DNA of 64,000 nt, from NCBI RefSeq assembly GCF_004123295.1, contig NZ_SDMK01000004.1, positions 310,001 to 374,000 of the forward strand, read 5' to 3'. The notes beneath the pieces were generated by a model. It had not been told where the DNA came from and did no database searches. It saw only the letters and a program-made list of their open reading frames with translations. This DNA is from Silvibacterium dinghuense. Lineage in GTDB: Bacteria > Acidobacteriota > Terriglobia > Terriglobales > Acidobacteriaceae. A program made the position numbers and the translations under genes. Below are positions 23,391-38,990 of this stretch, piece by piece; the first letter of the stretch is position 1, and each line of letters starts with the position of its first letter.

Positions 23391-25493
23391 TCAGTGCGCG
23401 TGCATCGGAATCTCCATCACCGTGATGCTCGCATTCGGAAAGGTGTACGTGCCTCCGCTCCTGATTGCCTCGGTGTGCTTCACGCCGGAGATGCGATCGG
23501 GAGCGTACGCATTGTTCTCATCCAGAATGCCGTTGCCCTGAATCGTCGTGATCCCGGCCATCCCGCTCGCCTCTCCGATCGCGCTCAGATCGAGCGTGGC
23601 CTGCTCGGGACGCGTGAGGCTGCGATTGACGCAGAACAGGATCAGCTTCGACTGATCCTCCGACAGCGCCGCCACCACATCCAGATAAGGCGCGTGCGCC
23701 ACGTCCGGCAGCTGCACCAGCCCCTTTGCGATGCTGTATGTCGGCGAGTCATCCTGCACCCGGAGCAGGAAATGCGGCCCGGCCTGCGCGTAACTGCGCA
23801 GCACCCAGTAAGCCGGCGAGGGATACACCTGTCCACGCTTCTTCCAGATGCCGCCGAACTCCAGGATGCCCGTCATGTCGGCGATGGAAACCGTATCCGC
23901 GTGGCGCATCATGGTGTTGAGAAAACCGCCGGCAAAGATCGCTCCGCCGAGGTTGCTGTAGTTCGGCACGGTGTGGGAGTCCGTAATCATCAGCCACTCG
24001 GTGAATGCGAATTTCAGATCCGGCCGGTGCGCCGCGACGGCCTGCTGCCTCATCGCATCGATGCGGCCGGAGAGCCCCCACGGCACCGCGAGCATAGCCA
24101 TCGTGCGGAAATCGTCGGAGGCATTCGGAAGCAGCACGCCTTCGTTCACGATGAAATGGCTGGAGAGATACTCGAAATCCTTCGCATCGTCGGTGAGCAT
24201 CTGCGCGTTCCAGTCATGAAAGAGGCCGCCATCGCCGCCAGTGGCAATCAGGTGAGCCGCCGGATCGACACCGTGCACCGCTTCGCTATTGGCAGCGGTC
24301 AGCCGCGCGGCCTGCGCCGGCGCGGGATAGCCCACCTGGTAGCTTCCCCACAGTTCGTTGCCAAGCTCCCAGGTCAGTCCGCCCTTGCCGTCTCCCCAGT
24401 GAGCATTGACATAGCGCACCCACGCGGCTGCCTGATCCGTGCGGCCCGTGCCGAGATTGAGCGCGATCTGCGGCTGTGCATGAATGAGCGCACAGAAGCG
24501 CAGGAATTCATCGGTGCCGAAGGTGTTGTATTCCGGAATCCCCCATGCAAGGTTCAGCATGCTCACCCGCTTGTCGGCAGGCCCCACGCCGTCATGCCAG
24601 TCGTATGCGGATGTGAAGTTGCCTCCGAAGCGGACCAGCGGCGAGTGCAGCGCACGAGCAAGCGCAATCACCTCCGGGTCCATGCCGTCGACGGCGTCAT
24701 CCGGAAAGAGCGACACGTTATCGATCAGAACCCTGGAGTTGCCTTCGAGTGAGATCGCAAAATCCGCCGGCTCGAGCGAGGCGAGCGTATCCGGCTTGAG
24801 CGCCAGGTGAAATTCGTATGGGTTCCATCCTGCCGATGACGCGGTCAGCACAGTCTCGGCAAGCACCTCGGCCGGACGGGAGCTGCGGCGCAGCGAAAGC
24901 CTGACCTGCGCAGGGCCATCGATCCGCTTCAACCAGATGCTTCCGTGGTACTGGAGTTCGCGAGCGGCAGGCAGATAGACCTGCTCGCGTATGCCCACCT
25001 CTTTCTCCGGCAGCGGCATGAGGAGCATGGACTGCGCCGAGTTCGCCGCATCGCCGCGAATGGGCGCGTAGCGGCTGCCTTCCGCAAAATCGAGCGGCTT
25101 CCATGGCGTCGGCAGGCCGAGCGACGAAGCCGCACGCAGATCCGGGTCTGCATTCCACTGCTCTTCCAGATTTTCCGCCGACCACAAGCCCTCTTCGAAC
25201 GAAGGATTCACCACCACATCCGCCCAGAGGCCTCCGTAGGTGGAGTGGCCGATCGGTTCGAGAAAGCTGCTGAACAGGGTTGGGGCGATCTCCTGCGGCG
25301 TCTGCGGACGGCTGACGCGAATCGCGATGGGACGGCCCGCGGGCAGCGGAGCCGATTCCGACATCTGCGCGGAGCTGAGGGAAACAGCGAAGAGCGATGC
25401 GGACACAAGGGCGAGCAGGCTGTATGTACGGATCGGTGGCAAGCGCGTCCTACCTATCTGGCTGGCATGATCCCGCAGCGGCGGGTATTCCAT
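23391..25493 (-). CDS. Secreted GH51 alpha-L-arabinofuranosidase
   Basis: The 700-residue protein has a signal sequence (TYSLLALVSASLFAVSLSSAQ), a carbohydrate-binding-like beta domain, a TIM barrel and a C-terminal jelly-roll. The acid/base glutamate is in LTWELGNELWGSYQVGY and the nucleophile in LKFAFTEWLMITDSH, both typical of GH51. The enzyme releases terminal arabinofuranose from arabinan or arabinoxylan. Its size and internal barrel match the longer, secreted Acidobacteria/Bacteroidetes form. The ATG at 25493 has no clear ribosome site. It lies 63 bases downstream of the Oar-type receptor gene on the same strand, with a strong hairpin between them, so the two genes may be one transcript with attenuated expression of this gene. 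Confidence 0.88.
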   Translation of the reverse strand: MEYPPLRDHASQIGRTRLPPIRTYSLLALVSASLFAVSLSSAQMSESAPLPAGRPIAIRVSRPQTPQEIAPTLFSSFLEPIGHSTYGGLWADVVVNPSFEEGLWSAENLEEQWNADPDLRAASSLGLPTPWKPLDFAEGSRYAPIRGDAANSAQSMLLMPLPEKEVGIREQVYLPAARELQYHGSIWLKRIDGPAQVRLSLRRSSRPAEVLAETVLTASSAGWNPYEFHLALKPDTLASLEPADFAISLEGNSRVLIDNVSLFPDDAVDGMDPEVIALARALHSPLVRFGGNFTSAYDWHDGVGPADKRVSMLNLAWGIPEYNTFGTDEFLRFCALIHAQPQIALNLGTGRTDQAAAWVRYVNAHWGDGKGGLTWELGNELWGSYQVGYPAPAQAARLTAANSEAVHGVDPAAHLIATGGDGGLFHDWNAQMLTDDAKDFEYLSSHFIVNEGVLLPNASDDFRTMAMLAVPWGLSGRIDAMRQQAVAAHRPDLKFAFTEWLMITDSHTVPNYSNLGGAIFAGGFLNTMMRHADTVSIADMTGILEFGGIWKKRGQVYPSPAYWVLRSYAQAGPHFLLRVQDDSPTYSIAKGLVQLPDVAHAPYLDVVAALSEDQSKLILFCVNRSLTRPEQATLDLSAIGEASGMAGITTIQGNGILDENNAYAPDRISGVKHTEAIRSGGTYTFPNASITVMEIPMHAH

Positions 25494-25556: not shown

Positions 25557-28500
25557 TCAGAAGCGGAAGCGTCCCGTGAACTGAATGTTCCTCGGCGTGG
25601 TGAGCGTCGCAGTGGGCACGCCGAAGGAAGCATCCGTCGGATTCGTATCGGGCAGCGCAAAGGCGTGCCGGTTGAAGGCGTTCAGCAGCTCCGCCTTGAA
25701 CTCGAACGAGATGCCTTCGCGGATAGGCGTCGTCTTCAGAATGCTGATGTCTTCGTTGTAGTACTTCTGCGTCCGCACTTCACCGGTGTAGCGCCGTATG
25801 TTGCCGAAGGAGTAGGCCCCGCTGCCGCGCACCGCGGTGCTGTTCGGATCGATGAACGCAGCCGCATTGAAGTAGCTGCCGTCTGCCGCGACGAACGGAT
25901 TCAGATGCCCGGCACGATACGCCGCGCTGGCCAGCGACTGCGTAGGATCGCGCCGGTAGAAGATGTTGTTCTCCCAGCCGGGAATCGAAGTCGCGCAGCA
26001 GAAAGGAACCGGCTGCCCGCTCTGATAGCGCTGCACGGTTCCGATCTCCCATCCGCCCGCAACATAGCTCGCGAAGCCATGATTGAGATACGCCTTGTCG
26101 TGCCCGAAGGGCAGCTGGTACAGAGGCGCGATCACGAAGGTCTGCGGAATATCCTCGGCGCTGACGGATTTTTCTCCGTGCAGGTTATCGGGATTCTGCA
26201 CCTGGGGAACGCTCAGCCCTGCGCCGGGCACAGCGCTGTCCGCATTGGTGAAGTTCTTTTCCCAGGTGTAGGAAGCCTGCAGCGAAAGCCCGTTGCGATA
26301 GCGGCGGGTGAGCGAAACCAGCATCGCGTTATACGTGGACATGCCCACGTTCTGGAGGCAGCAGCCGGTATCGATGGCATCGTACTGCGCAAACGGACGG
26401 AGAGCACGCTGCACCGGAACATTGGCTCCCCACAGCGAGTAGAAGCCGGCGAAGGGCGGCGCGACGCCTGCCGTGTTCCCATTGAGATTGGCGCTCAACT
26501 CATCGCCGAGCGAGAACTCGCCGATGGAAATGTTGTTGATGTTCTGCAGCGTGGAGCGCAGGTTCTGCGCCTTGTTACCCAGATATCCGATCGTCAGGAT
26601 CAGGTCGGGAGCCAGCTGCTGCTCCACCTGCAGACTCCACTCATAAACGGCGGAAGGCTTACCGAACTGCTTTTCAATATAGTTATCCGTAACCGACTGC
26701 CCGTTGAAGATACCCGGGTCGAGGTCGGGCGGCTGCGCGTATGCGGGAAAGCCGGAGTCAGCCAGAAATGCCGGAGAGAAGCCATCGCTGCTGGTAAAGT
26801 TCGGCTGAATCTTGTAGCCGGCATACATGCCGTTGCCGTCATCGGCATACTGCAGCGGACCATACAGGATCGCGCCGCCGCCGCGAAACACCGTCTGCCC
26901 ATTCGCGAAGGGCGCGAAGGCAAATCCGAAGCGGGGCGCGATGTCCTTGTAATAGGTATCCGCCCAGCGCTTATTGCCGCTGTAGTTCGTGCCGAAGACC
27001 AGCGCACCGGGAACACCGTATTCCGGATCGTTCGCCGTCGGACTGAAATTCGAAGTGAAGTTATGCGCCGCCGTGCGCGGCACATCCACGTCCCAGCGCA
27101 GACCGATGTTGAGCGTCAACTTATCGTTGACCTTCAGATCGTCCTGGGCAAACAGCGCATAGTAGTGCGATGTCCAGCGCGGCTGCGTCGCCACTTCGCC
27201 GGTGTCGAAGCTGCCGCCCTCCACCTGTCCAAGAAAGAGGCTCGCCAGGCTGCTGCCATCGAGTTCGGAATTCGCGGGATCGGAAGCAGACTGCGCGCGG
27301 TCGAAGGTCAGCGCAGGCGTCGGATAGCTGAGCGGCGAGAACTGCTGGATGCGGTAGTCCACGCCGAACTTGAAGCTGTGGCGGCCCTTCTCCTTGCTCA
27401 CGCCGTCATTGAACCGGAAGCCGTTATCGATCCAGTCGTTGTTCAGCGTATTGCCAAGGCCGCGGTACTGGTCGCGGCTGTCAAAGCTGATGGTCGGAAA
27501 GTTAGTAGAGGCCGGAGAGTTGCCGATGCCGATCTGCTGCGCATAGTCGGTGTTGCCCAGCGTGGGATAGGCAAAGTTCGCGCTGTTGGAGCGGTTGAAA
27601 CCGAAGTTGAAATGGTTGAGAAGCGTGGGGCTGAGGACATAATCCCACCCGAAGCGTCCGAAGTGCGTCTCGAAGTTCTGCTGCCAGGTTGCGGAGTCTT
27701 CCGGATAAGGCAGATAAGGCGTTCCGCAGCAGGTGCGGAGATTGTCACGCGTCGAGTAGGAGGCGAAGAACTTATGCTTCGCCGAAGCATTCGCATCGAT
27801 GCGGATGGTGTACGTGGTGTTATTGATCGGGATCGCGCTCGAATAATAGTAGTTGTTATAGAGTCCAGAAGTCGTGGGCTTGGGGATGTAGTTCAGCAGG
27901 TTATTCGCAACCGCGCTGAAGCGGCCGGAAGGAATCACGTTGCCGGCAAATGCGGTGCGGCACGAGGTACCGTTCACCGTGGTTTGCGTAGCAGGATCGA
28001 AGATCTCACCCGGATAGACCGTCTGGCCGTCGCAGGGATTCGTACCCGTGCTGCCGCCGGTCGGCGGCGCGGCCGGATTGTAGAGATCGGTGAAGTCGCC
28101 GCCGCGCTCCAGCAGCGTGGGAACAGTGCTGATCTGCGTGCCGCCTACCGTCCTCGCAAGCTGCTCCCAGGCGAAGAAGAAGAACAGGCGATCCTTCCCG
28201 TTGTACAGGTGAGGAACGATCACCGGACCGCCCAGGCTCACGCCATAATCGTTCTGCTTGTCGTCGGGCCGCCGGTACAGGTCGCGGCAGGTCTCCGTAT
28301 CGCTTGCGCCGCTGCAGTTCGCAATCAGGTCGCCGTTGTTGAACCATGTGTTCGCATCCAGCGCTTCATTGCGGAAGATATCGAAGAACGTGCCGTGAAA
28401 GGTATTTGTGCCGCTCTTGGTGACAAATGTTTCGATGCCTCCACCGGAGCGCCCATACTCCGCCGCGGGAATGCCGGTGATAACGCGAAACTCTGCCAGC

Positions 28501-29183
28501 GCCTCGACCGACGGTGACTCCTCATCGAACGACGAGCCATTTTCGCTGCGCGTCTGGCTCGCGCCATCCAGCAGATCGTCATTCGCAAAGGACTGGCCGC
28601 CGGCAATCTTCAGCGTGTAGATGCCGTTGTTGCTGTTTGCCGTTCCCGGGCCGGTCGTACCGGGCAGAAGAAATTCAAAAGCCTCCGGAGAGCGCAGCGC
28701 GCCGACGCCGCCCAGCGCAAGCGGCAGCTGAACAATCTGCCGGGCCTCGACATTGCCGCCGACGTCAGAAGACTGCGTCTCGACGACAGGCGCGGACGCA
28801 TCCACATGCACCACGGAAGCCGTGCTGCCCGCCCGCAGCGTCAGGTTGAGCGCCGTCGTGCTGCCGATCACAATCTGCACGCCCTGCTGCACCTGCGTTG
28901 AAAATCCCTGCGCCGAAGCGGTGATGTCATAGCTGCCGATGCTGAGCTCGGAGAAGGTATAGGAGCCTTCGGGGCTGGAGACCGTTTCGCGCACGATGCC
29001 GGTATTGGTCTCGCGCGCGGTGATCTTCGCTCTCGGGATCGCAGCCCCCGTCTGATCGAGAATGCTCCCGGCCAGCGAGCCGCGCACCGATTGCGCGTAG
29101 GCCTCAGGAAGCCGCACATCGCAGCTCAAAAACAGAAAAGCTATGCCAGCAAGGAGAGTGACAATCCTGATGATCGTTCTCAT
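25557..29183 (-). CDS. Oar-like TonB-dependent outer membrane receptor
   Basis: The 1208-residue protein has a signal sequence and, at about residues 30-110, a carboxypeptidase-regulatory-like beta sandwich (SVRGSLAGSILDQTGAAIP). A plug-like region (about 140-330) and a long beta barrel ending in FTGRFRF, with the usual terminal aromatic, follow. This is the Oar-type family abundant in Acidobacteria, where it replaces SusC for import of oligosaccharides or peptides. A Ton box is not obvious. ATG 29183 is preferred over upstream codons because GGAGG lies 8 bases before it. Its place next to GH51, a two-component system and GH54 suggests import of arabino-oligosaccharides, which is inference. 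Confidence 0.88.
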   Translation of the reverse strand: MRTIIRIVTLLAGIAFLFLSCDVRLPEAYAQSVRGSLAGSILDQTGAAIPRAKITARETNTGIVRETVSSPEGSYTFSELSIGSYDITASAQGFSTQVQQGVQIVIGSTTALNLTLRAGSTASVVHVDASAPVVETQSSDVGGNVEARQIVQLPLALGGVGALRSPEAFEFLLPGTTGPGTANSNNGIYTLKIAGGQSFANDDLLDGASQTRSENGSSFDEESPSVEALAEFRVITGIPAAEYGRSGGGIETFVTKSGTNTFHGTFFDIFRNEALDANTWFNNGDLIANCSGASDTETCRDLYRRPDDKQNDYGVSLGGPVIVPHLYNGKDRLFFFFAWEQLARTVGGTQISTVPTLLERGGDFTDLYNPAAPPTGGSTGTNPCDGQTVYPGEIFDPATQTTVNGTSCRTAFAGNVIPSGRFSAVANNLLNYIPKPTTSGLYNNYYYSSAIPINNTTYTIRIDANASAKHKFFASYSTRDNLRTCCGTPYLPYPEDSATWQQNFETHFGRFGWDYVLSPTLLNHFNFGFNRSNSANFAYPTLGNTDYAQQIGIGNSPASTNFPTISFDSRDQYRGLGNTLNNDWIDNGFRFNDGVSKEKGRHSFKFGVDYRIQQFSPLSYPTPALTFDRAQSASDPANSELDGSSLASLFLGQVEGGSFDTGEVATQPRWTSHYYALFAQDDLKVNDKLTLNIGLRWDVDVPRTAAHNFTSNFSPTANDPEYGVPGALVFGTNYSGNKRWADTYYKDIAPRFGFAFAPFANGQTVFRGGGAILYGPLQYADDGNGMYAGYKIQPNFTSSDGFSPAFLADSGFPAYAQPPDLDPGIFNGQSVTDNYIEKQFGKPSAVYEWSLQVEQQLAPDLILTIGYLGNKAQNLRSTLQNINNISIGEFSLGDELSANLNGNTAGVAPPFAGFYSLWGANVPVQRALRPFAQYDAIDTGCCLQNVGMSTYNAMLVSLTRRYRNGLSLQASYTWEKNFTNADSAVPGAGLSVPQVQNPDNLHGEKSVSAEDIPQTFVIAPLYQLPFGHDKAYLNHGFASYVAGGWEIGTVQRYQSGQPVPFCCATSIPGWENNIFYRRDPTQSLASAAYRAGHLNPFVAADGSYFNAAAFIDPNSTAVRGSGAYSFGNIRRYTGEVRTQKYYNEDISILKTTPIREGISFEFKAELLNAFNRHAFALPDTNPTDASFGVPTATLTTPRNIQFTGRFRF

Positions 29184-29457
29184 GCGTGTACCGCCTCCAA
29201 AAGACTTTCCAATGCTTGTACAAAGGCCTCGCGCATGGCTTTTGCCTCGGCGCTCAGGCCAATCAAAATCTGGATAAAACAGGGCTAGGCTCCTGCAGCG
29301 AAGACAGTAAGTTTCTGCAGAAGGGAAAGGCAAGATGATGGATGGCCCAAACTCGTCTGGTACAAATGACCCACTTCCGAATCCACCCTGCAAACTTCCG
29401 CAGCAATCGCAGAGAAATCCTTATCGCCTCCTCGAATTTGCCGTACATTTTCTAGGT

Positions 29458-30096
29458 ATGTCTGGCCCCGCCGCTCTGATCCGGGTTCTCATCGTCGACG
29501 ATCATCCCGTCGTCCGCTTCGGTCTTCGCACCATGCTCGAAAGCGAATCCCGCATCTCCGTAACCGGCATGGTCGGCAGCGCGAGAGAAGCCGTGCGGGC
29601 GCTCACAGAAACACCGGCCGATGTGGTGCTGATGGACCTGCGCATGCCGGAGCTCGAAGGCTCGGAGGCCATCCTCGAGCTGAAGCGCACACAGCCCGAC
29701 GCACGCATCCTCGTGCTGACGAACTACGAGTCCGAAGAAGATATCCTCGGAGCGCTGCGCGCAGGCGCAACCGGCTATCTGCTCAAGAACACGCCGCAGG
29801 ATGAGATCGTGCGCGGCATCGAGATGGTCTTCGAAAACCGGCGCTATGTGCCGCCGTCGATCGCCGACCGCCTGATGGAAACGCTGGGACGCGAAGAGCT
29901 GACGCCGAGAGAGCTGGAAGTGCTGATGCTCGTCGCGCGCGGAATGACCAACAAGGAGATCGCGCAGGCGCTCTTCATCAGCGACAAGACCGCGAGAAAC
30001 CACGTGACCAACTGCCTGCTGAAGCTGAAGGCCAACGACCGCACAGAAGCGGTCACCACGGCCATCCGCCGCGGCATCATCCGGATTTCGGAGTAA
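29458..30096 (+). CDS. NarL/FixJ family response regulator
   Basis: The 212-residue protein has a receiver domain (VLIVDDHPVVRFGL; phospho-Asp in VVLMDLRMPEL; Lys in GYLLKNTP) and a LuxR-type helix-turn-helix (LTPRELEVLMLVARGMTNKEIAQALF, DKTARNHVTNCLLKL). It is a transcription activator type controlled by a HisKA_3 kinase. The kinase gene lies tail to tail 14 bases away. ATG 29458 is used because it starts just before the receiver. Its 5' side is divergent from the Oar receptor gene. NarL-type proteins bind paired heptamers, and a 7-2-7 inverted repeat lies before GH54. Confidence 0.92.
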   Translation: MSGPAALIRVLIVDDHPVVRFGLRTMLESESRISVTGMVGSAREAVRALTETPADVVLMDLRMPELEGSEAILELKRTQPDARILVLTNYESEEDILGALRAGATGYLLKNTPQDEIVRGIEMVFENRRYVPPSIADRLMETLGREELTPRELEVLMLVARGMTNKEIAQALFISDKTARNHVTNCLLKLKANDRTEAVTTAIRRGIIRISE

Positions 30097-30110
30097 CCAG
30101 AACCGTTCTC

Positions 30111-31676
30111 TTACGCCGTCGCGGAGCCGCTGAGTGAGGCCGAACCGCCGCTCCAGAGCCTCGAGAGCAGCGTCCTGTCCCAGCGCAGCGGATGCAATTC
30201 CACCACCACGCGCACCGCCGTGCCCTTTCCGATACGGCTCGAGATCTGCAGCGTACCGCGGACATCGCGAGCCCTCTTCAGCATGCCGAGAATGCCGAAT
30301 CCCTGCGATTGAGGACCGTAGTCAAAGCCCCTGCCATTGTCTTCAATCAGAACTTCCACGCGGCGCGGCTGATAGTGCACGGTGATATCCAGCTGGCTGA
30401 GGCCGGAATGTGTCAGGGCGTTGGCAATAGCCTCCTTGCCGATGTGCTGCAAGGCGTCGGCCACGCGAAGACTCAGCGGCTGCGGCGATCCCGTCGCATG
30501 AGGGACGACGAGAATGCCCTGCCCTGCAATCTTCCTGGCCGAGTCGGCCAGCACCTTGAGCAGATCTTCGCGGTCCGAAGCAGGACCCGCGCCGAGCATG
30601 GAGATCGTCTCGCTGGCCTCGGAATGACAACGCCGGATCAGCTGATACGTCACGCTCAGCTGATCCGCAAGATGCTGCGGCTCCGCCATGCCTCCGCGCA
30701 GCAGCGCGCTGCGAATGCCCTGGATGTGATACCCGAGTCCGGCGAAGTTCTGCGCCATGGTGTCGTGGATGTCATGCGCCAGGCGTTGTCGCTCCTGCAT
30801 GATCGTCTCCGACTTCCACTGCTGAAAGCGGTAATAGAGAAGCTGCAGCAGCAGCGCCAGCGCCAGCGTTCCGACAAACAGCTCCGCGATATGCCACGGC
30901 GTCCACCACGGCGGACCGGAGAGCACTACGGGCCGCTCCACCGATTCGGTGTTGCGTTGCAGTTCGAGATAGTCGCCCAGCGTGGCCGGCGAGATATGGA
31001 TATTTCTCCACGCGCCTGTCACATCGACCGCGCGAAGCCCGATGCGCCCGGTCTTCGCGCAGTTGCGCTCCTCGAACGCGACATACGCCTTCTGCAGCGT
31101 GCTGAGGTTCTGCACATAAGCGCCGATCCTGCAGCCATACGCAGTCACGCGCATCCGGTACCACTCATGCGCGCTGACTCCGCCCGGCAGAGGAACCGGT
31201 CTCGCCTCGACCCATCCGAAATTCGACCGGCCGATAATCAGCGTGCCGCCATCCAGCCTGAGTCCGACATAGTAGCCGTTGTAGGCATCGATGCCGTTCT
31301 CCTCATCCTGAGACCGGAGGATGAGCCCGATATCGCCGCGGTCGCTGTCGAAGCGGAGATCGGCGGTCAGCGTGTAGTTCGCCCAGAGCTTCGAACCCGT
31401 GACCAGCTTCGCTCCCCGGTCATCGGAGTGCTTGCTCTCGACGATGTTGTCCCCGAACTGCCAGTTCCCTCCGATCGCATGCCACTCCCCTTCTTGGCCT
31501 TTGGCCAGCTCATACGTGTGCACCGGGACCATGGCGCGGCGGCTGGAGGCAATCATCGCGCAGCCGGCAAGAGCCAGCCCGAGCGCGAGCACGATCGCGC
31601 CGAAGAGATGCGCCCGCGACGGCATCCAGCGGACGCCCGGCTGTACTTCCTTGAGATGCCTGCGATCGAACGCCAT
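30111..31676 (-). CDS. NarX-type sensor kinase with lectin-like ectodomain
   Basis: The 521-residue protein has a first membrane helix (24-43), an extracytoplasmic domain of about 180 residues (50-230), a second helix (about 262-282), then HisKA_3 with phospho-His304 in LAHDIHDTMAQ and an ATPase domain (EAIANALTHSG; IEDNGRGFDYG). The ectodomain looks like a LamG/concanavalin-type jelly roll: AYNGYYVGLRLDGGTLIIGR, NFGWVEARP, EWYRMRVTAYGCRIG, GRIGLRAVDVTGAWRNIHI. The same domain occurs twice in the adjacent divergent GH54 enzyme. The likely job is to sense the polysaccharide or oligosaccharide that the enzyme binds and to phosphorylate the response regulator that is convergent with it. ATG 31676 is chosen because it begins the cytoplasmic head before helix 1. 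Confidence 0.9.
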   Translation of the reverse strand: MAFDRRHLKEVQPGVRWMPSRAHLFGAIVLALGLALAGCAMIASSRRAMVPVHTYELAKGQEGEWHAIGGNWQFGDNIVESKHSDDRGAKLVTGSKLWANYTLTADLRFDSDRGDIGLILRSQDEENGIDAYNGYYVGLRLDGGTLIIGRSNFGWVEARPVPLPGGVSAHEWYRMRVTAYGCRIGAYVQNLSTLQKAYVAFEERNCAKTGRIGLRAVDVTGAWRNIHISPATLGDYLELQRNTESVERPVVLSGPPWWTPWHIAELFVGTLALALLLQLLYYRFQQWKSETIMQERQRLAHDIHDTMAQNFAGLGYHIQGIRSALLRGGMAEPQHLADQLSVTYQLIRRCHSEASETISMLGAGPASDREDLLKVLADSARKIAGQGILVVPHATGSPQPLSLRVADALQHIGKEAIANALTHSGLSQLDITVHYQPRRVEVLIEDNGRGFDYGPQSQGFGILGMLKRARDVRGTLQISSRIGKGTAVRVVVELHPLRWDRTLLSRLWSGGSASLSGSATA

Positions 31677-32072
31677 GACGTGTTCCAGCGAGGGATAACG
31701 GCAAACACTGTACACGGCGGCAGCCGCGCTTAGGAAGCCTTCCTTCTGCGCCCCACGTGTGCCCGCAGCGCCATCGGCCAAGCGCCTGACGCGGAGAAGG
31801 GTCATTCGGATCACTGCAAATTGGTGCACTTGCACCATTGCGGTGATTCGCCGGGTGCATCTAGCATGCGTCTGCTTCGCATAGCGATCGCCACCATGAG
31901 GCCTGGACCATGCCATGCATGGATTCCGCGCCCGAAGGGATGCATGACCCCTTTGCCCGCTCCAGGCGGGCGCTGCGCCGCTGCCGTGAAGCCTCCACAG
32001 CTCTTCGCTTCTCTCCGCTTCGCAACCCGTTCGCCAGAACTGCACCAGCCTGCACTAAGGAGAAAGAGACGT
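31677..32072. promoter_or_regulatory. Divergent promoter region, kinase and GH54
   Basis: This 396-base spacer carries the promoters of the kinase (minus) and GH54 (plus). It contains the 7-2-7 palindrome at 31822-31837 and a purine-rich ribosome site for GH54 (aaggagaaagagac, 32057-32070). The large open frames across it on both strands are low quality and are not called. Confidence 0.6.
31822..31837. promoter_or_regulatory. 7-2-7 inverted repeat, candidate response-regulator site
   Basis: The sequence tggtgca-ct-tgcacca is a perfect inverted repeat of two heptamers with a 2-base centre. That spacing is the one known for NarL-family regulators. It lies about 146 bases before the kinase start and 235 bases before the GH54 start. 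I did not find the same heptamers before the receptor or GH51 genes. Confidence 0.45.
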
Positions 32073-34190
32073 ATGAAATTCAGCCTGGCATCGCTTCTCA
32101 GAGGGAGAGTGCTCACGTTCCTGATCTCTCTCAGCTTTCTCAACGTTCTCACTGGTGTATGTTTCGCCCAGACTCGAGCCAATGGCCCCTGCGATATCTA
32201 TGCGTCAAGCACGCCGTGCGTAGCGGCATTCAGCACCACCCGGGCGCTCTACGCGTCCTACACCGGATCGCTGTACCAGGTCACCCGCGCCTCCGATAGC
32301 ACCACCACAGACATCGGCATTCTTTCCGACGGCTATGCGAATGCCGCCACGCAGGACAGCTTCTGCTCCGGAACCACCTGCACCATCACCGAAATCTACG
32401 ATCAGTCCGCCAATCACAACAACCTCACGCTCGCTCCGCCGGGCGGAGCAGCCACCGGCGCCGGTCCGAATGGCTACGATCTCGCCGCGGTCGCAAACAT
32501 CGCGCCCGTGCAGGCCGGAGGCCACAAGGTCTACGGCGTCTACATCACCGCCGGCGAGGGCTATCGCAACGATGCGACCACGGGCATCGCCGTCAATGGC
32601 CAGCCTGAAGGCGTCTACATGGTGAGCTCGGCGATTCACCTCAACGGCGGGTGCTGCTTCGACTTCGGAAACGCCGAAGTCAACAACGATGACAACGGCG
32701 CCGGCCACATGGATGCCATCAACCTCATCTGCTCCGGCGATCCCTGCTCTCCGGTTGCCGGTCTCGACATGGAGAACGGCATCTACGGCGGTCTCGCCGT
32801 CACACCGGGAACGCCCTTCGTCACCGCGATGGGCGCGAATGACGGCCAGCAAAGCTATACGATCTATCAGGGGAATGCGCAATCCGGCTCGCTCACGACT
32901 ACCGGCTCCGTCAGTCTTCCCTCCGGCTATGCGCCCATGCACCAGGAAGGCGCCATCATCCTCGGCATCGGAGGCGATAACAGCAGCACCGCGACAGGCT
33001 ATTTCTTTGAAGGCGTAATGACCAGCGGCGCGCCATCCGCAACCACGATGAGCTCCGTACAGTCGAACATCATCTCCGCCGGTTATGCCGGCATGCTCCC
33101 CTACCACGACGGCTTCGGAAGCGGTTCAGCCACGGGATGGACCACGTATGACGGCACATGGTCGGTCTCCGGCAGCTCGTACCTCAACAGCACCGTGGAT
33201 ACGGACGGCGACAAAGCCATCACCGGAGCCACGGCATGGGATAACTACACCCTGCAGGGAGACGTTCAAATTACAGGAGGAGGCGGAAACGCGGGCCTCA
33301 ACTTCCGCGTCACCAATCCCGGCGATGGAACCGATTCGCTCGACGGCTACTATCTGGGCGTCGATCTGGACGGCAACCTGGTCTTTGGCCGCGAATACTA
33401 TGGCTGGACACTGCTGCAACAGGCAGCTATCTCAGGCGGAGTCACCAGCAACGTCTGGTATCACCTCACCGTCCAGGCCAACGGATGCACCTTTACCGTA
33501 TCCGGCCAGCCGGTAGGATCGACCACGGCCACATCCTTCACGTACACCGATACCGGCTGCACTTACACCGCAGGCGCCATTGGCGTGCGCAGTTATAACT
33601 CCTCGGCCGCGTGGCGCGATATCTCCGTCGCCGCCGGAGTCACTTCCTCCACGCCGTACTATGCCCCCTTCGCAGCCGGCACAGGGCCATCCGGATGGAC
33701 GACCTACGCCGGAACCTGGTCGCTCTCCGGCGATGATTACATCAACTCCGCCACCGACACCGACGGCGATAAGTCGATCGGCGGCCCCACCTTCGGCAAC
33801 TTCACGCTCTCCGGCGATGTGGACATCACCACCACCGGAGGCAACGCCGGCTTCCTCCTCCGCTCCTCCGACCCGGCGGTGGGCACCGACTCGGTCGACG
33901 CGTATTACTTAGGCGTCGATACAGGCGGCTTCATCGTCATCGGCAAGGAAAACTACGGATGGACAGAGCTCGCATCTGCGCCGCTCAGCGCTGCGCCGGC
34001 CAATACCTGGTACCACCTCACGGCCCAGGTCATCGGCTGCCAGATCCGGCTCACCGCGCAGGCCGCCAACTCCTCCACACCGAGCAACGACGTCACGGTG
34101 AACGATTGCAGCTTCTCCACGGGCCAGGCTGGAGTGCGATCGTACGATACGTCGGCGCAATGGAGGTATCTCAGCGTCGTACCGAACTAA
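32073..34190 (+). CDS. Secreted GH54 alpha-L-arabinofuranosidase with two lectin-like domains
   Basis: The 705-residue protein has a signal sequence (about 1-32), a GH54 catalytic beta sandwich (37-340) and two repeats of a LamG-like domain (344-520 and 528-705). The catalytic part matches fungal AbfB closely (NGPCDIYASSTPCVAAFSTT; GGCCFDFGNAE). The nucleophile is probably E234 in LDMENGIYGG and the acid/base D302 in GIGGDNSSTATG. GH54 enzymes release arabinofuranose from arabinan and arabinoxylan; fungal ones end in a CBM42, which is replaced here. The two repeats share GYYLGVDLDGNLVFGR, YGWT, WYHLT and AWRDISV with the neighbouring kinase ectodomain. ATG 32073 follows aaggagaaagagac. The protein is presumably extracellular. 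Confidence 0.93.
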   Translation: MKFSLASLLRGRVLTFLISLSFLNVLTGVCFAQTRANGPCDIYASSTPCVAAFSTTRALYASYTGSLYQVTRASDSTTTDIGILSDGYANAATQDSFCSGTTCTITEIYDQSANHNNLTLAPPGGAATGAGPNGYDLAAVANIAPVQAGGHKVYGVYITAGEGYRNDATTGIAVNGQPEGVYMVSSAIHLNGGCCFDFGNAEVNNDDNGAGHMDAINLICSGDPCSPVAGLDMENGIYGGLAVTPGTPFVTAMGANDGQQSYTIYQGNAQSGSLTTTGSVSLPSGYAPMHQEGAIILGIGGDNSSTATGYFFEGVMTSGAPSATTMSSVQSNIISAGYAGMLPYHDGFGSGSATGWTTYDGTWSVSGSSYLNSTVDTDGDKAITGATAWDNYTLQGDVQITGGGGNAGLNFRVTNPGDGTDSLDGYYLGVDLDGNLVFGREYYGWTLLQQAAISGGVTSNVWYHLTVQANGCTFTVSGQPVGSTTATSFTYTDTGCTYTAGAIGVRSYNSSAAWRDISVAAGVTSSTPYYAPFAAGTGPSGWTTYAGTWSLSGDDYINSATDTDGDKSIGGPTFGNFTLSGDVDITTTGGNAGFLLRSSDPAVGTDSVDAYYLGVDTGGFIVIGKENYGWTELASAPLSAAPANTWYHLTAQVIGCQIRLTAQAANSSTPSNDVTVNDCSFSTGQAGVRSYDTSAQWRYLSVVPN

Positions 34191-36391: not shown

Positions 36392-36662
36392 GAAAAGACC
36401 TGTCATCCCTCCACTGCGCTACGCTTCGGTCGGGATGACAGGTCTTTGGGGATCATTCGTCCCCACCCGGCGCTGCGCCGGAGCGCGACCAAAGGGAGCG
36501 GGAGCCGAAGGCGATCCGCCCTGCGCGAAGCAGTCTTTCTCTTTTAACAGCGGACCCTTATACCTGTAGCTGGAGAAAAATCTCTCCGCAGATTTCCAAA
36601 TGGCGCATACGGAAGAGCACCCCACGCGAGAGCTTCCGCGATACAGCCAGATCAAGGGACCG
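36392..36662. repeat. Hairpin, A unit and GH92 upstream DNA
   Basis: A short D-derived hairpin is at 36394-36447, then a reverse A unit at about 36471-36525. The remaining 130 bases are the upstream DNA of the GH92 gene. Confidence 0.65.
36394..36447 (+). terminator. D-derived terminator-like hairpin
   Basis: The arms aaaagacctgtcatccc and gggatgacaggtcttt pair over about 16 bp. The loop (tccactgcgctacgcttcggtc) is the inner part of the D repeat. It starts 3 bases after the methyltransferase stop and could end its transcript, although the T run is short. Confidence 0.6.
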
Positions 36663-38990
36663 ATGATGCCACGCCTTTTCCTGCGCAAGCCGCAGCTTTT
36701 ATCCGCCGTATTCCTGCTGGCGGCCTCTTTTGCATGCACAAACGCCTGGCCGCAGAAGACCGCGTCCCCCACCCGCGACCTGACCGCCAATGTGGACCCC
36801 TTCATCGGTGTCGACTGGGGCGGCAACACCTTCGTCGGCGCGGCCATTCCTTATGGCATGGTCAAGGTGGGCCCGGACATGGAGAGCTTCGACGGACGCC
36901 GCTCCGGCTTCGGCTACGCCAGCAGCGGCTATCTTCTCGGCTTCTCACATCTGCATCTCAGCGGCGCGCAGGGCAAGTACGGCAACATCCTCGTGACACC
37001 GACGACCGGCCCGCTCGAGATCACCGACATCAAGACGCCGCGCTCGAGCGAGGTGGCGAAGGTGGGCTATTACGCTGTCGAGCTGGCGCGCTACCACGTG
37101 AAGGCAGAGATCACCAGCAGCCGCCGCGTCGGCTTCCATCGCTATACCTTCCCTGCGTCGCAGCAGTCGCACATCGTTCTCAACGTGGCCTCGGCGCTGA
37201 ACCTCGGCACCGGCTGGGAGGCGCAGCGCTTTCTCGGCGCCGAGGTCCATGTCGTCTCCGATCGCGAGGTGCAGGGCGTCGCGCGCTTTACCGGCGGCTG
37301 GAATCGCGGCGGTGAGTACAAGGTCTATTACTCCATGGTGCTGGACACGCCGGCCCGCGACGTGCAGACCTGGAGCGGCGCCACGCTCTCCGATGCGAAG
37401 GATGCAACCGCAGGCGCGAACACTCCCATCGGAGCCTCTTTTAACTTCATCACGCATGCTCACCAGGTGATCCAGGCCAAGGTCGGCATCTCCTTTCTCA
37501 GCGCGGAGCAGGCAAGACAGAATGTGCAGCAGGAGATCCCCGCGTGGAACTTCGACGCCGTGCACGCCGCAGCCACGGCGCTCTGGAACAAGGAGCTCGC
37601 CAAGCTGAGCCTGAGCGGGGAGACCGCATCGCAGCGGCGCCAGCTCTACACCGCGATGTATCACATCATGCTGATGCCGACCGACCGCACCGGCGAGAAC
37701 CCGGACTGGCAATCCTCGGAGCCCTATTACGACGACTACTACTGCATCTGGGACACCTTCCGCACCTCGAGCCCGCTGCTCACGCTGATCTCGCCCGACC
37801 GGCAGCGCGACATGATCCGCTCGCTGATCGATATCTATCGCCACACCGGTTACATGCCCGACGCGCGCAGCGGCAATGACAACGGGCGCACGCAGGGCGG
37901 CTCGAACTCCGATGTCGTCATTGCCGATGCCTTCGTGAAAGGCCTGAAGGGCATCGACTATAAGACCGCCTTCGCCGCCATGGTGCATAACGCCGAAGTG
38001 CCGCCGGCCGATGCGCAGAAGGAAGGCCGCGGCGGCCTGAAGGACTACAACGAGAAGGGCTACGTCACCCTCGCCGACGAGCGCTCCGGCTCACGCACCG
38101 TGGAGTACAGCTATGACGACTTCGCCCTCGCCGAGGTAGCCTGCGGCCTCGGCCACACGCGCGAAGCAGCGCTCTACGCCGGGCGCACGCATAACTTCGA
38201 GCACCTGTGGGACAAGGACATGACCGTCGAAGGCTTTCACGGCTTCCTGCGCCCGCGCAATCCCGATGGCAGCTGGGCCGCGCCCTACCTGGTCGTGCGC
38301 GGCACCTGGCCCGACTTCTTCTACGAGGGCGATATCTGGACGTACTCCATCTATGCGCCGCAGGATATGCGCCGTCTCATCGCAATGGCCGGAGGCGATG
38401 CGGCCTTTGTCCAGCGCCTCGACTGGACCTTCCTGCGCGGCCACTTCGACGTCACGAACGAACCTGGATTTCTGCTGCCCGTGCTCTACAACTATGCGCT
38501 CCGCCCCGATCACAGCGCGGAAGTCGTGCACATGCTGCTGGAGAAGGCCTTCACCGACACGCGTGCCGGCATCCCCGGCAACGACGATTCCGGCGCCATG
38601 TCGAGCTGGCTCATCTTCTCCACGCTCGGCATCTTTCCCATCGCCGGGCAGGATGTCTATCTCATCAGCACGCCAAGCATTCCCGACGCGACGCTCTCGC
38701 TCGGCAACGGCAAGAAGCTGCGCATCATCGCCAGGAACCTTGATCCGCAGGGCCTGAACCGCTTCGTGCAGTCCGCCACGCTGAACGGAGTGGACCTGCC
38801 GAATGCCTGGTTCCGCCACGCGCAGATTCAGGACGGCGCCACGCTCGTGCTCACGCTGGGCTCGGCACCATCGCCGACATGGGGCAGATCGGTACCGCCG
38901 CCTTCCATGAGCGATCACGGGAGCGATCGAGGGAGTGATCCGGGCTTCCAGCTCTGCCCCACAACCACCTCCGCGGAACCAGAGCGCTGA
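36663..38990 (+). CDS. Secreted GH92 alpha-mannosidase
   Basis: The 775-residue protein has a signal sequence (PQLLSAVFLLAASFACTNAW), an N-terminal beta sandwich and an (alpha/alpha)6 barrel of family GH92. Family motifs include NVDPFIGVDWGGNTFVGAAI, YGMVKVGPDME, YCIWDTFRTSSPLLTLI, GFLRPRNPDGSW and GNDDSGAMSSWLIFSTLG. These calcium-dependent enzymes remove alpha-mannose (mostly 1,2 linked) from fungal or other glycans. After the usual end of the domain (LVLTLGSAPSPTWGR) there are about 30 low-complexity residues with repeated DHGSDRGSDPG. The start is at ATG 36663 or 36666. It is monocistronic; the stop is followed by an A fragment and a composite repeat. Confidence 0.92.
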   Translation: MMPRLFLRKPQLLSAVFLLAASFACTNAWPQKTASPTRDLTANVDPFIGVDWGGNTFVGAAIPYGMVKVGPDMESFDGRRSGFGYASSGYLLGFSHLHLSGAQGKYGNILVTPTTGPLEITDIKTPRSSEVAKVGYYAVELARYHVKAEITSSRRVGFHRYTFPASQQSHIVLNVASALNLGTGWEAQRFLGAEVHVVSDREVQGVARFTGGWNRGGEYKVYYSMVLDTPARDVQTWSGATLSDAKDATAGANTPIGASFNFITHAHQVIQAKVGISFLSAEQARQNVQQEIPAWNFDAVHAAATALWNKELAKLSLSGETASQRRQLYTAMYHIMLMPTDRTGENPDWQSSEPYYDDYYCIWDTFRTSSPLLTLISPDRQRDMIRSLIDIYRHTGYMPDARSGNDNGRTQGGSNSDVVIADAFVKGLKGIDYKTAFAAMVHNAEVPPADAQKEGRGGLKDYNEKGYVTLADERSGSRTVEYSYDDFALAEVACGLGHTREAALYAGRTHNFEHLWDKDMTVEGFHGFLRPRNPDGSWAAPYLVVRGTWPDFFYEGDIWTYSIYAPQDMRRLIAMAGGDAAFVQRLDWTFLRGHFDVTNEPGFLLPVLYNYALRPDHSAEVVHMLLEKAFTDTRAGIPGNDDSGAMSSWLIFSTLGIFPIAGQDVYLISTPSIPDATLSLGNGKKLRIIARNLDPQGLNRFVQSATLNGVDLPNAWFRHAQIQDGATLVLTLGSAPSPTWGRSVPPPSMSDHGSDRGSDPGFQLCPTTTSAEPER

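Follow-up and report, generated by a model that had tools for sequence, protein, structure and literature searches.

A CBM66-like histidine kinase beside a GH54 arabinofuranosidase in Silvibacterium dinghuense points to a candidate sugar-sensing circuit of Acidobacteriota

Sugar-binding proteins work together with sensor kinases in systems such as XylFII-LytS and ChvE-VirA. Enzyme-type carbohydrate-binding modules, CBM42 included, are carried outside the cell by the RsgI anti-sigma factors of Clostridium thermocellum, membrane sensors reported to signal by proteolysis and a sigma factor (PMC12203970). A study of Planctomycetota describes membrane serine/threonine kinases with one membrane span and DUF1080 (PF06439) as their periplasmic domain (PMC11032199). 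Here we report a locus of Silvibacterium dinghuense (Acidobacteriota) in which domains of that same Pfam family occur once in a two-component histidine kinase and twice on a GH54 alpha-L-arabinofuranosidase. The locus lies in a stretch of 64,000 nucleotides (the window; contig NZ_SDMK01000004.1 of assembly GCF_004123295.1, positions 310,001 to 374,000), and coordinates are those of the window unless a locus handle is given. We lean towards the view that the periplasmic, CBM66-like domain of the kinase senses an arabinofuranose-type sugar and that the kinase switches on the GH54 gene, a GH51 gene and an Oar-type receptor gene through a NarL-type regulator and candidate palindromic operators, with the GH54 modules forming a separate lineage. 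The genes and domains concerned are the following.

23391 to 25493, minus strand: GH51-type alpha-L-arabinofuranosidase (Pfam PF06964, 51.7 bits; best NCBIfam model ArfA)
25557 to 29183, minus strand: Oar-type TonB-dependent receptor (Pfam PF25183, E 6e-187; PF13620, CarboxypepD_reg, E 3e-19)
29458 to 30096, plus strand: NarL-type response regulator, convergent with the kinase gene (Pfam PF00072, E 3e-26; PF00196, E 4e-19)
30111 to 31676, minus strand: sensor histidine kinase of 521 amino acids (Pfam HisKA_3 at residues 295-359, HATPase_c at 406-494)
30993 to 31487, minus strand: CBM66-like ectodomain, kinase residues 64-228 (PF06439; top PDB match 4b1m)
32073 to 34190, plus strand: GH54 alpha-L-arabinofuranosidase of 705 amino acids (Pfam), with an N-terminal signal-like stretch judged by eye
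32187 to 33089, plus strand: GH54 catalytic domain, residues 39-339 (PF09206, E 1.7e-114)
33126 to 33629, plus strand: first CBM66-like C-terminal domain of the GH54 enzyme, residues 352-519 (PF06439; top PDB match 4b1m)
33684 to 34187, plus strand: second CBM66-like C-terminal domain of the GH54 enzyme (BLASTP homology; 50% identity to the first)

An original prediction, made from the letters of the window, had named GH51, an Oar receptor and a NarL-type regulator as companions of the kinase and GH54 genes, and Pfam and NCBIfam searches found all three. For GH51, the ArfA model scored 160 bits (E 9e-47), below its cut-off of 625; the gene lies 63 bp downstream of the Oar gene, and the two are likely one operon. 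The kinase has a NarX-type build (HisKA_3 plus HATPase_c) and the regulator a NarL-type build (receiver plus GerE), with hydrophobic stretches at about residues 24-42 and 263-281 flanking the kinase ectodomain. The pair resembles NarX/NarL in its HisKA_3 kinase, GerE regulator and 7-2-7 inverted site, and differs in its ectodomain and in scores far under the NCBIfam cut-offs (NarX equivalog 50.5 bits vs 578, NarL 130.8 vs 250); a reading as a nitrate sensor was rejected on these scores. No RsgI domain was found among the Pfam matches of the kinase, a histidine kinase with its response regulator next door, whereas RsgI proteins use neither kinase nor regulator. The Planctomycetota kinases, likened here by their published description, are also membrane kinases whose periplasmic domain belongs to this Pfam family, and a receptor role for our ectodomain would agree with that; they are, however, of serine/threonine type and not two-component histidine kinases. 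The enzyme shares with fungal GH54-CBM42 proteins a GH54 catalytic domain followed by a C-terminal sugar module, and the module of one of these, AkCBM42, is reported to bind arabinofuranose (PMC10992016). In our enzyme the modules are two CBM66-like domains, and CBM42 was absent from its Pfam matches up to E 1, which comprised PF09206 and PF06439 only. The original prediction had also known of no described system of this type. The open-licence literature searched gave no report of a CBM66-like domain as the sensor of a histidine kinase; DUF1080 domains in membrane kinases and enzyme-type modules in membrane sensors have been reported before.

Judged from their sequences, the kinase ectodomain and both C-terminal domains of the GH54 enzyme are homologous, with similarity far beyond chance. 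The PF06439 (3keto-disac_hyd / DUF1080) model matched kinase residues 64-228 with 42.6 bits against a curated cut-off of 26.8, and matched the GH54 protein in two stretches with 59.8 bits for the whole protein. The first GH54 domain clears this cut-off alone; the second was not listed by itself in the PF06439 search of the genome, and its membership rests on the whole-protein match and BLASTP. In BLASTP the ectodomain was 31% identical to the first GH54 domain (E 2e-30) and 32% identical to the second (E 2e-21). The motifs named in the original prediction align in the order it gave across kinase and GH54 domains and are conserved in relatives too; the elements common to both are W, GxW, G..GL..R, GYYxG, GR/GK, YGW/FGW, WY, GC, a second C, GxxGxR and WR. 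The cysteine pair was present in all nine enzyme rows of our alignment, and among the 69 sensor rows C182 was found in 69 and C206 in 68 (one gap). Four further kinases with the same ectodomain are encoded elsewhere in the 5.1 Mb genome, with 33-44% identity to the window kinase, and in BLASTP each outscores the GH54 domains against it. The first GH54 domain, for its part, has 37-39% identity to the ectodomains of three of these four and scores higher with them than with the neighbouring kinase; for the second, the neighbouring kinase ranks second among kinases (87.8 bits; top 90.5).

Models of the kinase domain (predicted local distance difference test, pLDDT, 94.2) and the first GH54 domain (pLDDT 95.0), built from alignments of window and related-locus sequences, share a beta-sandwich fold, so that the comparison of predicted structures proposed earlier did not return differing folds. 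The top PDB fold match of both was 4b1m_A, the CBM66 of Bacillus subtilis levanase SacC, with E 7.1e-9 for the kinase domain and 3.8e-9 for the GH54 domain, TM scores by target length of 0.81 and 0.79, and 17-21% identity in the fold alignments. For a profile of 46 sensor rows and two GH54 rows (A3), all PDB matches under E 0.1 were levanase CBM66 entries, three in number, the top one being 4azz at E 6e-6; because this sequence match is weak, we write CBM66-like. The models support a carbohydrate-module type for both modelled domains, with CBM66 as the closest solved structure, and Pfam, BLASTP and fold matches together uphold the earlier statement that one domain family is present in both proteins. 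The first-studied CBM66 binds terminal fructosides and another is reported to bind xanthan and not fructan (PMC11002231), so the family does not fix specificity.

Beyond the fold, sensors and enzymes differ from one another at four positions. We compared the 69 sensor rows, in which at least six genes were fetched twice, with the nine enzyme rows in kinase numbering. Position 89 is A in 63 of the sensors and D in every enzyme row, position 140 is R in 67 sensors and D (seven) or N (two) in the enzymes, and position 151 is A or S in 64 sensors and E in all nine enzymes. At position 87, R occupies 66 sensor rows, and at least seven of the nine enzyme rows have N, D, T or Q. In the same alignment the CBM66 residue is D at three of these positions (87, 89 and 140) and F at the fourth (151); acidic residues at the aligned positions 89 and 140 are thus common to enzyme domains and CBM66 but not to sensors. 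Relative to the CBM66 of SacC, which is the best PDB match by profile and by fold, the present domains stand apart in being placed once in a histidine kinase and twice on a GH54 enzyme, and in the replacement of conserved acidic positions in the sensors. R87, R140, W155 and E157 are nearly invariant among sensors.

The window kinase belongs to a family found largely in Acidobacteriota. An ectodomain search returned matches in 45 of 399 genomes of the class. A contig scan with an alignment (A2) and two short peptide patterns, which misses divergent relatives, returned 58 loci, nearly all with labels of Acidobacteriota or its genera (Granulicella, Edaphobacter, Bryocella, Acidipila and others), the outliers being single records labelled Formivibrio, Bacillota and Streptomyces. 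The recurrent architecture is an Oar-type transporter, a Peripla_BP_4 lipoprotein, a CBM66-like kinase and a NarL-type regulator. In the fetched neighbourhoods of the sister loci in the same genome we likewise found a sugar-binding lipoprotein-type gene, a NarL-type regulator and an Oar-like receptor; the lipoprotein was Peripla_BP_4 in the one tested, and the receptor match at locus L011 was partial. Elsewhere in this genome, a gene at C1:1494433-1496571 (L008:4434-6572) has two PF06439 stretches and an FHA domain within a cluster that by eye is type VI secretion-like.

Kinases of the family come in three forms. The long form joins the ectodomain to an OB-like domain and the kinase and is accompanied by a sugar-binding gene; the split form has its ectodomain encoded by a small gene of its own; and the short form, to which the window kinase belongs, has neither the OB-like domain nor the sugar-binding gene. 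The OB-like assignment is our reading of the sequence, Pfam giving a sub-threshold Rep_fac-A_3 match only. A sugar-binding gene lies beside all 54 OB-type kinases with at least 1.2 kb of upstream sequence, a count that includes four apparent misses recovered by tblastn and excludes L174 (too little upstream), and beside none of the 12 kinases lacking the OB-like domain (11 short-form and L116, an odd split form). Short forms make up one clade (95/90) nested among long forms in a tree of 72 rows, a pattern that looks like a single event in which OB-like domain and sugar-binding gene were lost together, rather than many separate losses. The long-branch loci resemble the XylFII-LytS and ChvE-VirA type in pairing a Peripla_BP_4 lipoprotein with a kinase and regulator; they differ in having CBM66-like and OB-like domains inside the kinase, and the window branch differs in having no binding protein. 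Natural split receptors, with the ectodomain as a separate small gene beside an OB-keeping kinase, were seen at L113, L114, L115, L117, L120, L124 and L174.

These forms bear on an explanation that we consider rather unlikely, in which the ectodomain binds no sugar itself and is a docking or dimerisation module for the sugar-binding protein, the Oar receptor or another protein. The lipoprotein encoded next door in 54 of 54 long-branch cases could itself read the sugar, the acidic positions of enzyme-type modules are lost in the sensors, and at least seven of the fetched loci encode the domain apart from the kinase, in a small gene next to it. Against this, the window branch retains the ectodomain with neither sugar-binding gene nor OB-like domain, which makes the OB-like domain the better docking candidate, and the four residues R87, R140, W155 and E157 have stayed nearly invariant.

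The original prediction had proposed instead that the sensor reads the polymer with the same module, and hence the same specificity, that the enzyme uses to hold it. Homology and a common fold speak for this, as do the shared locus and its likely co-regulation, and genome G396 likewise has a kinase of this kind some 13 kb away from a GH39-like enzyme that carries two of these domains. In the 72-row tree, however, the nine enzyme domains (two from each of three GH54s, two from the GH39-like enzyme and one from another protein) group in a single clade (100/99) at the end of a long branch; the short-form clade contains the window kinase. Approximately unbiased (AU) tests rejected trees forcing the window kinase (p-AU 0.021) or all short-form kinases (p-AU 0.011) together with the enzyme domains; these p values are modest, with long branches in play. 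A recent module swap between kinase and enzyme was rejected on the trees and these AU tests. The four positions also differ consistently between sensors and enzymes, the first GH54 domain scores higher with three other kinases than with its neighbour, and the ectodomain sits between two membrane helices and so should be periplasmic, meeting imported or trimmed sugars and not the polymer. We therefore judge common specificity to be distinctly improbable and did not sustain the claim that the sensor reads with the enzyme's own module.

Nor is the linkage of kinase and GH54 conserved. Ectodomain-like matches on the GH54 gene were found in three (G000, G245 and G360) of 54 GH54-bearing genomes. 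In G245 and G360 (loci L056 and L058) the GH54 gene adjoins Oar and GH51 genes, and no kinase of the ectodomain type was found in 19.5 kb around either; in G245 none was found genome-wide at this search sensitivity. No GH54 was found near the other short-form kinases, ten in number, in the 5.4 to 19.5 kb covered around each. A conserved linkage was rejected as a rule: among 20 further GH54 neighbourhoods with long flanks, a subset of all GH54 matches, L066 alone has a kinase of the ectodomain type, at a distance of no more than about 5 kb. The kinase search added a second GH54 near such a kinase (L149); both of these kinases are long-type, and neither GH54 is annotated with extra domains. At greater distance, a GH54 lies about 23 kb from a split-type match in G343 and about 32 kb from a long-type kinase in G360. 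The GH39-like enzyme of G396 (L118:4431-7622, with L119), with its two enzyme-type CBM66-like domains, is placed near a long-form kinase locus with GH51 and Oar genes. The best reading is that sensor and enzyme modules have had no recent sharing and have no demonstrable same specificity, and that shared regulation unites them in the locus.

That the ectodomain keeps 3-keto-glycoside hydrolase activity and senses or processes 3-keto sugars is highly improbable: among the reported members of PF06439 are a 3-ketotrehalose hydrolase and a proposed 3'-ketolactose hydrolase (PMC9007349), but CBM66, a binding module, is the best match of the profile and of both models, and no activity of these domains should be deduced from the Pfam name '3-keto-disaccharide hydrolase'.

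Shared regulation is suggested by two sites, one in each divergent promoter of the locus.

29358 to 29373, no strand assigned: candidate operator TGGTACAAATGACCCA (one mismatch to TRGTNCANNTGNACYA) in the Oar/regulator divergent promoter
31822 to 31837, no strand assigned: candidate operator TGGTGCA-CT-TGCACCA, a perfect 7-2-7 palindrome of 16 bases, between the kinase and GH54 starts

NarL-type sites have the same 7-2-7 spacing, and so does the consensus palindrome of the family, TRGTNCA-N2-TGNACYA. At up to one mismatch the widened pattern matches the 64 kb of the window twice, once per divergent promoter; shuffled windows had a mean of 0.13 matches, with two matches in 1 of 100. A first consensus, TGGTRCANNTGYACCA, gave 19 promoter matches against 0 for the reversed control. 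It was narrow, with one match (L107) among ten short-type relatives, and was hence widened. With up to two mismatches, the pattern TRGTRCANNTGYACYA matched 49 times in the 113,710 bases of promoters of 70 family loci (reversed control 6) and 21 times in 953,627 bases of other sequence (control 47); 71 loci had been supplied, and L170 was without an anchor. The widened consensus was derived from the same loci, so the family-locus and genome counts are partly circular. Independent of this circularity are the genome scan with the motif of the window copies and the Granulicella GH54/Oar/GH51 cluster L058, which stood outside the motif-finding set. Slightly relaxed, the window motif had one other perfect match in the genome (C4:69033; site L025:5034), in the Oar/sugar-binding-protein promoter of another kinase locus; allowing one mismatch it had four places, vs three for the reversed control. 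L058 has two sites (8644 and 11372), one of which starts 289 bp ahead of the GH54 gene and the other 248 bp ahead of the Oar gene; its shuffles gave a mean of 0.08 matches and two matches in 0 of 100. L056, from the genome with no such kinase at the search sensitivity used, has no site at up to one mismatch. Across 23 genomes we counted 34 perfect sites, 12 of them no more than 4 kb from a sensor-type match (0.10 expected); since the total is similar to that of the reversed control, the remaining sites are probably background. The locus of enzyme, transporter and sensor looks co-regulated by these sequence patterns. To that extent the sites favour the earlier idea of a locus that responds as one; the word 'arabinan' in that description is drawn from the neighbouring genes.

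Those neighbours were examined across the family. GH127 and GH51 are largely L-arabinofuranosidase families, with some members that act on other substrates. Within 10 kb of 54 sensor-type matches in 36 genomes we counted 19 pairs with GH127 (0.79 expected; 17 of the 54 matches) and five with GH51 (0.58 expected; five matches), and the GH92 control gave two pairs among the matches listed (1.03 expected). This set left out the matches that are enzymes (G167, G245, and GH54 or GH39-like genes in G000, G360 and G396), as well as the weakest matches, seven in all (E 5e-8 and weaker), and the kinase domain was checked in part of the 54. GH127 genes near the regulator of long-form loci include L157:10813-12921, L161:10769-12802 and L066:10694-12748. 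The window itself holds a GH92 gene downstream of the locus (36600-38990, an open reading frame of 796 amino acids), and GH92 has ten matches in the genome among the matches listed. A LamG-type module of a Ruminiclostridium arabinofuranosidase is listed as an arabino-oligosaccharide binder (PMC10992016). Given the GH127 and GH51 neighbours, the fructoside binding of CBM66 and this LamG-type binding of arabino-oligosaccharides, a furanoside ligand is a reasonable hypothesis.

Kinase-to-regulator signalling of the NarX-NarL kind is established for these families. In the arabinofuranose-sensing circuit that we favour, the kinase would act as sensor in a derived branch of this acidobacterial two-component family that does without a sugar-binding protein. 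Oar, going by its family, would import oligosaccharides, and in the periplasm the CBM66-like ectodomain would bind a small sugar or the end of a chain, probably an arabinofuranoside, changing the activity of the kinase, which would signal to the NarL-type regulator. The regulator may then bind the 7-2-7 palindromes in both divergent promoters and activate Oar and GH51 on one side and GH54 on the other, plus its own genes. The two enzyme-lineage modules probably hold GH54 to substrate ends. In long-form relatives the sugar-binding protein probably acts through the OB-like domain, because the two are absent together.

Several observations weigh against this circuit. A site with up to two mismatches was found in 40 of 70 loci and not in all, and in the 23 genomes the perfect pattern occurred 34 times, vs 29 for its reversed control. 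At up to one mismatch, locus L009 of the same genome has no site, L011 has one that is inside a gene and thus no promoter site, and L066 and L149, where GH54 lies near long-form kinases, have none. Because the loci are related by descent, the counts behind the neighbourhood and operator statistics are not independent events, and the Poisson probabilities make the case look stronger than it is. The exchange of acidic residues for arginine or alanine in the sensors may reflect a changed or lost sugar site. Four short-form kinases (L106, L107, L110 and L131) adjoin glutaminase A-like (DUF4964/DUF5127) genes, which may mean a different ligand for part of the short-form branch; L110 also adjoins GH51. 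Other short-form kinases lie near GH92 (L138), an S9 peptidase (L111) and hydantoinase and ASPIC genes (L109), so that arabinose is not necessarily what this branch binds.

More tentatively, Acidobacteriota may possess a sensing-circuit class of their own: a CBM66-like NarX-type kinase, usually with a sugar-binding lipoprotein, a NarL-type regulator and a TRGTNCA-N2-TGNACYA operator, directed at Oar and at enzymes of arabinofuranosidase type, a few of them with a version of the module that diverged long ago, and with the domain of the short branch as a direct sugar receptor. Acidobacteriota are abundant soil bacteria. The open-licence literature searched names two-component systems but none of this kind, and we found there no description of plant-polysaccharide sensing by such a system in this phylum. 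The receptor domain, the regulator, the short operator and the targets are identified here as candidates open to testing with purified parts. In this family one binding fold would be used by both enzymes and receptors, with charged residues that visibly differ between the two uses.

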